Part shown: positions 32,096 through 63,407 of the stretch, piece after piece
Numbering within the stretch: the stretch's first letter is position 1
Layout of the letters: every line of letters begins with the position of its first letter
Program-made: the position numbers and the translations under genes
NCBI RefSeq assembly: GCF_010093535.1
Contig: NW_022985187.1
Location: 810,241 to 874,240 of the forward strand
Source of the DNA: Lindgomyces ingoldianus
Taxonomy: Eukaryota > Ascomycota > Dothideomycetes > Pleosporales > Lindgomycetaceae
Length of the DNA stretch: 64,000 bases
Direction of reading: 5' to 3'
Notes under the pieces: generated by a model
What the model was told of the DNA's origin: nothing
The model's input: only the letters and a program-made list of their open reading frames with translations
The model's database searches: none

Positions 32096-35000
32096 ATGTC
32101 GAACGAGCTCACTCCAGGGCCCCCTATCAAAATAACAGAGAAGGCCGAACCGAGGGACAAGACCACGGCCGACATCGAGTATGACGACTTTGGCTTGCCT
32201 ATAAGAAAACGGCGGCCTAGGACCCCAGTGGACGACAGCTCGGACTCGGACTCAGATGTGTTTAAAAGTGCGCCAGCAACAGCGTCAGCCAGCCGACAGG
32301 ATATTGCGCTGCCAGAAGAGAGTACTGCAAAAGTAGAACAAGTCACGGGGAAGCTAAATGAACCCCACACTGTCAACTCGCCGGTCAACGGTCTTGTTCA
32401 CGACAAGGAGAAGCAGGAGAAGCAGGAGAAGCCGGAGAAGCCGGACCACGGGGTCCAGGTGAAGGACGAGAAGTCCTCAGAACCCACATCGCCAAAAGAG
32501 TTTCCCGAGACTGCCCCGCCGGCAGCCACGACCCGCAATCGCAGCATATCGATACCCACAAATGTCGAAGGACATCATGCCTTCGCCATATCCGAGTACT
32601 CTCATCAGCAGCTCGCCCCTCAAACTCACAAAGAGCAGGAAGCGCATCAGGAGGTCGAGGAATGGCAGGAAATGCCGGCCTATGCCCATTTTGACATGTA
32701 CAACGACGATAACAAGCTCGTTGCCCGGGAAAACCAAGAGGAACTCGAGGACATGAACGGTTATGGAAACCTCGGAGGTGCTGCAAAAGGCTACACGAGA
32801 GTCACGATGGATGATGACGTAGAGTCCGTAACTAGCATGGACGACAATACTGCGTATCTCTTCAAGGAGAAAGGTACCACCTTGTTGGACGAAGACGAAG
32901 GCGCCCGGGATCCGCTCGCACAGATGCAGACCACCAAAGGACTTCTCACCGAAGGTCAGCGCATAGCCTACGTTGGCCTTGTGCGGCTGGCCATGGTGCA
33001 AATGGCGAAACAACCCGCTGGTCTGGACCGTACGAAAGGCACTAAAAAACTGCTGGATCTGTGTGAGGCGGCTTTGAAGATGTGGTCCCAGAAGATGATG
33101 GTTCGCCTTTACACACATATGGATATCGATTCCTCGGAGCAAATTATGATTGAACAACTTGCCGAGCATGGGGTAGAACCGCCAGATTTAGTCCCTGCCT
33201 TAATGCAGAATGCTCGGGTAAAGAACCCTGTTACCGAGGAAACAGATTCACCAAGACTGTCAGTCTCCTCACCGCGCCCCAACTCACATTCCGAAAAGTC
33301 CATGTCTTCGTCTGCCGTCAACCTCTACGATGCTGCTGAGAGCCCTCCACCTCCACCCTACAATGAGCATGAAGGCGAAGAGCTTCCAGAAGTCCGCACT
33401 CCGTCCCAGCTCCCCCAGACTAAGAATCTTGACATCGACCTCCGGTGGACCATTCTCTGCGACTTGTTTCTAGTTCTTATCGCAGACTCTGTCTACGATT
33501 CGCGGTCGAGACAGCTTTTAGAGCATGTTGGCAGCTATCTTAGCGTGGATTGGCTCGAGATCTGTAAATTTGAGAAGCGAGTAACAGACGCCCTGGAAAT
33601 GCAAGAGGAAGCCAACAAGGAGAACTGGAATGAAGACGACCATATGGAAAATAGACGAAAGAGGGCTTACAAGAAACGTCTTGCCTTTATGGGGCTTGCC
33701 ACGGTCGGAGGTGGTTTAGTCATTGGACTGTCTGCCGGTCTTCTTGCTCCTGTCATCGGTGCTGGTCTCGCCGCGGGCTTCACCACGATTGGCGTCGCAG
33801 GGACGGGTACATTTCTTGCTGGTGCTGGAGGTGCTGCTATCATCACTACAACAGGTGTCCTGAGTGGCGGTACGATTGCCGTAAGAGCAGCAGACAGACG
33901 CACGGGTGCGGTTAAAACTTTTGAATATCGCCCTCTTCACAACAACAAAAGAGTCAATCTCATCGTCACAATATCCGGGTGGATGATTGGCAAGGTCGAT
34001 GACGTTCGGCTGCCATACAGCACAGTAGATCCAGTTATGGGCGACATCTACTCCGTCCTCTGGGAGCCGGAAATGCTCCGAAGTATGGGTGACACTATCA
34101 ACATTCTTGCGACAGAGGTAAGTCTTCCCATGGTATGATGAAAGGGGGTACCAACGATTCTCCAGGCTCTCACGCAAGGCCTCCAACAAGTGTTGGGTAG
34201 CACCATCCTCGTCGCCCTTATGGCGGCTCTGCAGTTGCCCATTGTGCTCACAAAGCTATCATATCTAATCGACAACCCTTGGACGGTTTCACAGGCAAGA
34301 GCAGATATGGCTGGGCTTATTCTTGCCGACTCGCTTATTGACCGTAACCTTGGGACACGGCCGATTACTCTTGTTGGGTTCTCTCTAGGGTCTAGAGTCA
34401 TCTTCGCCTGCCTTAAGGAGCTCGCAAACCGTGGAGCCTTCGGTATCGTCCAGAATGTGTACATGTTCGGCACGCCGGTCGTAGCAAAAAAGGACGAATA
34501 CATCAAAGCACGAGCAATTGTCCCTGGGCGATTTGTAAATGGATATGCAACAAATGATTGGATCTTAGGTAGGTATGTCCAATTTCTCCCGTAGCTGACT
34601 CTAATAAGCTGTTTAGGATATCTCTTCCGAGCAACCAGTGGAGGTATTATGCGCGTAGCAGGTCTAGCGCCTGTTGAAGTGCCAGGGATCGAAAATCATA
34701 ATGTCACTGAACTTGTCCCAGGACATATGGCTTACAGAGCAGCAATGCCAAAGCTTCTCAGAGAGGTTGGCTGGAGCGTAGAAAGCGACGAATTCACGGA
34801 AATCGAGGACCCCGACCCAGAAAACCATGATAAGAGACAGCGAGAGCTCATCAACGAGATCGAAGAGGCCAGAAAAGAATTAGAAAAGAAACCGGAAAAG
34901 AAGGGCTTCAGCTTTTGGCGGAAGAAGAAAGTGGAGAAGAAAGAGTGGGAGGTGTATGATGAACATTCAAAGGCACCAGTGGGTAAAGAAGGAGATGCCG

Positions 35001-41076: not shown

Positions 41077-41234
41077 AGTCCTGTGGCGCAGTGGTAGCGC
41101 GCCGTTCTTATATGATTCGTCAGACTCATATGGCCTCGTCTGGTAATGCGGATGCCGTGGGTTCGAGTGAGTCTGGTCCCCAATGTTTGTCGTTGCGTGC
41201 AGCCTAACACATTCAACAGACCCCACCAGGACTA
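41077..41234 (+). tRNA. tRNA-Ile(UAU) with anticodon intron plus intron-like insert in the T-loop
   Basis: The cloverleaf is complete after removing two segments. The acceptor AGTCCTG (41077-41083) pairs perfectly with CAGGACT (41227-41233), with discriminator A. The D-arm is GCGC-AGTGGTA-GCGC. The anticodon stem CCGTT and loop CTTATA are followed by a 33-base intron (41113-41145) at the standard place after position 37; it can pair with the anticodon through ATATGA/TCATAT. The stem 3' side TGCGG leaves one T-T mismatch (31:39). The variable loop is ATGCC. T-stem GTGGG/CCCAC and loop TTCGA|AC are split by 53 bases (41167-41219) starting GTGAGT, containing CTAAC (41204-41208) and ending CAACAG. 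The insert interrupts the B-box. Isotype is from the anticodon only. Confidence 0.82.
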
Positions 41235-41241
41235 TTCGGTC

Positions 41242-41248
41242 TTTTTTT
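41242..41248 (+). terminator. Pol III terminator of the tRNA gene
   Basis: Seven T in a row begin eight bases after the tRNA 3' end, as expected for RNA polymerase III termination. Confidence 0.75.
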
Positions 41249-63283: not shown

Positions 63284-63289
63284 AAAAAA
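63284..63289 (-). terminator. Pol III terminator of the 5S gene
   Basis: On the minus strand six T directly follow the 5S 3' end, the normal RNA polymerase III stop. Confidence 0.7.
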
Positions 63290-63407
63290 CATACAACAGC
63301 AGGTATTCGCTAGTGGTCACCCACCTAACTACTAATCCACCGGTACCAAGGTTGTCTATCGAAGATCGAACGGGGTTCAGACTGTTCTTGGTCCTATGGT
63401 CGTATGT
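63289..63407 (-). rRNA. 5S rRNA gene (dispersed copy)
   Basis: The minus strand begins ACATACGACCATAGGACCAA and ends ACCTGCTGTTGTATGT. The ends pair (ACATAC/GTATGT, helix I), and the internal block TAGTAGTTAGGTGGGTGACC plus TAGCGAATACC is the conserved fungal 5S 3' half containing the C-box. The arm ACCAAG/CTTGGT is complementary. At 119 bases it has the normal length. 5S genes are scattered singly in Pezizomycotina rather than in the rDNA array. Some internal bases (GTTCGATCT where GTCCG is usual) could be mutations, so a pseudogene is not excluded. Confidence 0.85.

Follow-up and report, generated by a model that had tools for sequence, protein, structure and literature searches.

How a nuclear tRNA gene comes to carry, within its T-loop, an insert with the ends of an mRNA intron is the question raised by a tRNA-Ile(UAU) gene of Lindgomyces ingoldianus. 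In the textbook division of labor, mRNA introns are removed by the spliceosome and tRNA introns by a protein endonuclease. An earlier note on this DNA had proposed that an mRNA-type intron invaded the gene, and that maturation would need either the spliceosome or endonuclease cutting of a hairpin in the insert. The genome screened comprised 68.4 Mb in 99 contigs, and the window, i.e. the whole stretch of DNA analyzed (64,000 nt), was contig C26, positions 810241-874240. The gene was resolved as follows, in window coordinates:

41077-41234 (+): tRNA-Ile(UAU) gene, whole; cloverleaf complete after removal of both inserts
41077-41112 (+): 5' exon (acceptor 5' strand, D-arm, anticodon stem 5' strand, anticodon TAT, A37)
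41113-41145 (+): ordinary 37/38 tRNA intron, 33 nt, without GT/GC-AG ends in its 3 equivalent registers
41146-41166 (+): middle exon, position 38 to A58 (anticodon stem 3' strand, variable loop, T-stem 5' strand, TTCGA)
41167-41219 (+): spliceosomal-type intron, 53 nt, at T-loop 58/59; donor GTGAGT, branch CTAAC, acceptor CAG
41220-41234 (+): 3' exon, 15 nt (T-loop AC, T-stem 3' strand, acceptor 3' strand, discriminator A)
41242-41248 (+): T7 Pol III terminator-like run, beginning 8 nt past the discriminator

The cloverleaf was intact only with two segments taken out, the 33-nt intron and the 53-nt insert, as had been claimed, and counting of letters and pairs bore out the rest of that description. 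The acceptor AGTCCTG/CAGGACT formed 7/7 pairs, and without 41167-41219 the T-stem GTGGG/CCCAC formed 5/5 around the T-loop TTCGAAC; the anticodon stem formed 4/5, with one T-T mismatch, and the trailer TTCGGTC separated the discriminator from T7. The insert read GTGAGT...CTAAC...CAACAG, its branch A lying 12 nt before the end, and a single cut register, which is GT..AG, yielded the spliced sequence. The statement that the insert splits the B-box held in part: the last two Cs are displaced, but GGTTCGA remains whole.

ARAGORN and Rfam (at the gathering score) called no tRNA at the unspliced 41077-41234, which would suit a chance resemblance, or an assembly error, at a degenerate tRNA-like sequence. 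With the insert removed, ARAGORN called tRNA-Ile(UAU), and to an own-genome tRNA model the gene was the sole window match at E up to 1, with its 3' end set wrongly at 41189, within the insert. The insert was also considered as an intron of an overlapping protein gene, and this was rejected, overlapping stop-to-stop frames of at least 50 codons reaching only 51-68 codons. Elsewhere in the window, a second GGTTCGAGTGAGT (L029, 54602-54614, - strand) had no tRNA visible around it and is probably a chance match, and a 5S rRNA gene (63288-63407, - strand, 76.7 bits) was full length without an insert, so that this Pol III gene is uninterrupted.

Genome-wide, an insert with splice signals away from 37/38 was present in 12 of the 46 tRNA genes located; the sample is incomplete and biased, because the search tool scores best candidates only, a gene with an insert scores low, and 58/59 was the target of three patterns. 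The twelve interrupted loci were spread over eleven contigs, with inserts at these sites:

58/59 (five genes): Ile-UAU, Glu-UUC, Lys-CUU, Leu-CAG, Leu-AAG
53/54 (three genes): His (two genes), Thr-UGU
25/26 (two genes): Ile-AAU (two genes)
30/31 (one gene): Phe-GAA, with GC-AG ends
variable arm (one gene): Ser-GCU

The pattern GGTTCGA+GTRNGT...YAG+ANYCC had 3 matches in the genome, all of them tRNAs (the window Ile-UAU, tRNA-Glu(UUC) and tRNA-Leu(CAG)), and the backward pattern had 0. The ungapped pattern GGTTCRAGTRNGT gave 22 matches against 35 for its backward control; 5 were tRNAs, namely the same three, Lys(CUU) and a Leu read as AAG. The sister pattern HGTTCRAGTRAGT gave 14 matches (backward control 21), none of which was judged a tRNA, a loose script flagging a few unconvincing frames. 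An Rfam tRNA search, blind to splice signals, returned 34 matches at E up to 0.001, and inspection by eye, script and ARAGORN found an insert away from 37/38 in 4 of them (Ser(GCU), Thr(UGU) and two His(GUG)). BLAST with yeast and human tRNAs as query brought up a pair of tRNA-Ile(AAU) genes separated by about 1.8 kb (L114 and L115; G000:C36, about 228100-230060), both interrupted at 25/26, with a 37/38 intron present in one and absent from the other. D-arm patterns gave 23 matches, of which ten chosen places were read, the remainder being known genes or unlikely-looking; they added three Pro genes, whose only introns were ordinary 37/38 ones, and two Phe genes, of which one was uninterrupted and the other had a GC-AG insert at 30/31. 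The Rfam search list omits the three Pro genes and the uninterrupted Phe gene, and an intact gene for His or Ile may likewise have escaped it. Two further loci deserve mention in their own right: L061, named Glu(UUC) by ARAGORN, was read here as Arg(UCG) having a 37/38 intron of 12 nt, and L070 (G000:C95:14176-14247, on a 26.8-kb contig, 41.6 bits) is tRNA-Lys(CUU)-like and possibly a decayed copy.

At the junction that rebuilds the tRNA, all twelve inserts ended in AG, and 11/12 began with GT and 1/12 with GC (GCAAGT). Each had a YTRAY branch motif with its A 9-15 nt before the end; lengths were 48-58 nt in eleven and 86 nt in one, and the donor was GTRAGT or GTAGGT in ten, the other two being GTAAGA and GCAAGT. 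As the five 58/59 genes were found via GT-AG patterns, they give no independent support to this consensus. Seven genes (Ser, His-1, His-2, Thr, Ile-AAU-a, Ile-AAU-b and Phe) were found without a splice criterion, by tRNA search, BLAST or D-arm pattern, and their inserts were tested for GT/GC..AG in an equivalent register plus a branch motif with its A 8-16 nt from the end; the boundary of the Ser insert was set by the intact variable arm TTCCTTCGGGAGC of Ser-AGA (L056), not by pairing. All seven passed, and among 200,000 shuffles per insert only 117 to 380 did so (0.0006-0.0019), a combined product of about 1e-20. An eighth insert encountered without the criterion (Leu-AAG 30/31) was GG-AG and failed, giving an overall fit of 7/8. 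Ordinary 37/38 introns of the same genome had GT/GC..AG ends in 0/25, every equivalent register being considered.

As a yardstick for protein introns, four introns of two genes were mapped exactly with own-species proteins (48, 48, 85 and 71 nt; donors GTAAGT, GTAGGT, GTACTT and GTAAGT, respectively), two of them in a DUF726 gene:

34118-34165 (+): DUF726 gene intron, 48 nt, GTAAGT...CAG, mapped with own-species protein P0121
34569-34616 (+): DUF726 gene intron, 48 nt, GTAGGT...TAG, mapped with an own-species protein

By length the tRNA inserts fit the mRNA introns of this organism, the yardstick being small, and these four lengths offer a loose check on the earlier remark that introns of 53 nt are common in the window's protein genes. 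Intron-like motifs of 40-59 nt numbered 12 in the window (the Ile-UAU insert included) against a mean of 3.1 in 20 simulated sequences. Consistent boundaries at twelve loci on eleven contigs, the shuffling control and the failure of the backward pattern (0 matches vs 3) leave chance resemblance or assembly error barely credible.

The inserts might instead be cut out by the tRNA splicing endonuclease and resealed by ligase, as happens in archaea, in nucleomorphs and in Cyanidioschyzon merolae; their GT-AG ends would then be coincidental or secondary. Their positions invite this reading, since the archaeal non-canonical sites 25/26, 30/31 and 53/54 given in the accessible text of a review (PMC4090602) recur here, and introns at 12/13, 37/38 and 53/54 interrupt the tRNA-Ile(UAU) of C. 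merolae according to the available part of PMC9602550; GTCTG/CAGAC is also able to pair within the Ile-UAU insert. The junctions themselves give the endonuclease alternative no support: under a strict definition of the bulge-helix-bulge motif (a 4-bp helix between two 3-nt bulges), none of the 12 formed the full central helix in any equivalent register or in either orientation, the best reaching 3/4 pairs, as some would by chance. Taken with the GT/GC-AG ends and branch motifs of 7/8 criterion-free inserts, set against the 0/25 for such ends in ordinary 37/38 introns, this makes removal by the endonuclease very unlikely. Introner-like elements were considered and rejected as well, since comparison of 66 tRNA-intron pairs without their splice signals gave a best z of 3.1 (100 shuffles each) and no family.

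A further possibility is that the introns sit in redundant, dead tRNA copies and that the tRNAs come from intact genes that escaped notice. In the accessible text of the review (PMC4090602), insertions in the D- or T-arm of a eukaryotic gene are presumed to mark a pseudogene, and the incompleteness of our tRNA census leaves room for intact copies. The sequences outside the inserts nevertheless retain the marks of working genes. With inserts and 37/38 introns removed, 185/187 acceptor, anticodon and T-stem pairs formed in 11 genes (counted from ungapped sequences, D-stems being outside the count, as was Leu-AAG because of its second insert). The acceptor stem formed 7/7 pairs in all twelve genes, each of which was followed by a run of 5 to 16 T starting at most 11 nt past the 3' end. 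Between the two His genes, whose intron separates the two T-stem halves, 7 stem pairs differed on both sides with pairing kept, and between the two Ile-AAU genes 4 did; one-sided changes numbered 0 in either pair. Changes on the two sides of the intron thus preserve the stems. Decay would also not be expected to preserve GT/GC-AG ends and branch motifs in 12/12.

The introns of these paralogues are themselves dissimilar. Those of the His genes are 48 and 86 nt and are not among the six most similar of the 66 intron pairs, and the Ile-AAU intron bodies are no more similar than shuffles (199/500 reach the score), while site and signals agree; an old shared intron whose sequence has drifted would be the simplest reading. 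The Phe genes form a presence/absence pair, in which L119 reads CCAG, 58 nt, ACTGAAG and the intron-less L120 reads CCAGACTGAAG. On unspliced sequences ARAGORN called a tRNA in 4/12 genes, three of them misidentified, and after insert removal in 11/12; Thr(UGU), Ile-AAU-a and Phe were still misnamed, probably through their 37/38 introns.

Individual copies are more doubtful. Leu-AAG (L024; G000:C8, about 354020-354220) has a 37/38 intron, a 58/59 intron and a second insert of 50 nt at 30/31, which is bounded by CCAGG repeats, has GG..AG ends and contains a CTAAT motif; this second insert matches no U2 rule and resembles a spliceosomal intron whose donor has been spoiled, which suggests that this copy may be dead. 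With its 58/59 insert removed, ARAGORN made no call there, or called Asp with other flanks. Phe, Lys-CUU and Ser-GCU each also occur uninterrupted, which might make the interrupted gene dispensable. The interrupted genes for these three, like that for Leu-AAG, may be pseudogenes. As an account of the whole set, in which the His and Ile-AAU pairs show no one-sided change and the searches made found no intact His or Ile gene, dead copies are unlikely.

On this reading of the DNA, the Ile-UAU gene is very probably a functional Pol III gene whose insert is a spliceosomal intron of U2 type, and L. ingoldianus would have a set of such introns in its tRNA genes. The proposal that an mRNA-type intron entered a tRNA gene is thereby strongly supported, such inserts being present in 12 tRNA genes. 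The earlier note had named a second intact tRNA-Ile(UAU) gene as a sign of a pseudogene; none was located in two limited searches, and both Ile(AAU) genes found were interrupted too.

The eukaryotic tRNA-His anticodon arm is conserved. The arm CGTTGTGGCCG occurs at 25 genome sites, 2 of which have an A-box upstream, and both are the interrupted tRNA-His genes; no further tRNA-His with this arm was present among the 25, a search that a different stem would escape. L110, flagged under a loose script rule, was rejected (anticodon stem 2/5 pairs, no A-box). All three Ile genes found were interrupted, as was the sole Glu gene found. If no intact His, Ile or Glu copy was missed, translation here requires the spliceosome for tRNA. 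We consider it likely that the supply of several essential tRNAs (His, Ile and probably Glu) hangs on the mRNA spliceosome, that tRNA genes of at least 8 amino-acid types have been invaded at several sites, that some tRNAs pass two unrelated splicing machines, and that translation is tied to the capacity of the spliceosome.

From the arrangement of the gene we infer the following course of transcription and splicing, in which the spliceosome would act before the endonuclease. Pol III would transcribe the gene from the A-box and the remaining GGTTCGA B-box core, ending at T7. U1 would bind GTRAGT and U2 would bind CTRAY, and the spliceosome would ligate A58 to A59 and so restore the T-loop. Only after this repair could the loop be modified, the ends be trimmed and CCA be added; in the available part of PMC9602550, C. 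merolae Pus4 is inactive on a precursor with a T-arm intron. The 37/38 intron would be cut out last, by the tRNA endonuclease. Both T-arm sites (53/54 and 58/59) flank TTCRA, the B-box core: GGTTCGA is kept at the 58/59 inserts, and at 53/54 the last G of the intron replaces G53, so that GTTCRA is kept. The remaining insert sites all fall between A-box and B-box, and the promoter core is thus readable with every insert seen, which may be why these sites are tolerated.

If the genes work, the border between spliceosome and endonuclease is crossed in a plain fungus: tRNAs would be spliceosome substrates without a cap or a Pol II tail, and one precursor would use both systems. The set would be a natural experiment on the requirements of the spliceosome, on intron gain (through the presence/absence paralogue pair) and on internal-promoter tolerance. 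Standard tRNA finders missed or misread most of the 12 interrupted genes, so annotations of such genomes may fall short in tRNA genes, interrupted ones having been set aside as pseudogenes.

No report of spliceosomal introns in tRNA genes was found in the portion of the open-access literature covered, most subscription journals and preprints lying outside it, and the string 'spliceosom' is absent from the available main text of the review PMC4090602. Related systems are known. In the accessible account of Schizosaccharomyces pombe U6 (PMC10484740), a small RNA made by Pol III loses an mRNA-type intron by splicing during maturation, as is proposed here. U6 is, however, a spliceosome component, with its intron near catalytic nucleotides and thought to derive from reverse splicing, whereas the hosts here are tRNAs. 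The U6 genes of L. ingoldianus itself (L037-L044) gave eight matches above the Rfam cut-off (45-91 bits), full length and intron-less, and four more below it; the lower-scoring matches may be pseudogenes.

Ascomycete nuclear rDNA, chiefly of lichen fungi, is alike in that a structural RNA not made by Pol II carries spliceosomal introns, again short, which are absent from its mature form (PMC8527467 and PMC11889510, in the parts available). The accessible text of PMC8527467 has such introns of lichen fungi removed from Pol I transcripts, by yeast too, and that of PMC11889510 places spliceosomal introns in ascomycete 18S. The difference lies in the host, these being Pol I rRNA repeats and those of L. 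ingoldianus low-copy Pol III tRNA genes.

Archaeal non-canonical tRNA introns share the sites 25/26, 30/31 and 53/54 in the available review text, but are endonuclease substrates with bulge-helix-bulge motifs. C. merolae and nucleomorphs are similar in having extra introns in D-, anticodon and T-arms, some together with a 37/38 intron and including tRNA-Ile(UAU) at 53/54 (PMC4090602 and PMC9602550, accessible text). In the same accounts the ectopic introns of C. merolae are attributed to the tRNA endonuclease acting on bulge-helix-bulge motifs, and the tRNA introns of the Guillardia theta nucleomorph measure 3-24 nt. Those of L. ingoldianus, in contrast, measure 48-86 nt, have GT/GC-AG ends and a branch motif, and show the full central helix at 0/12 junctions.
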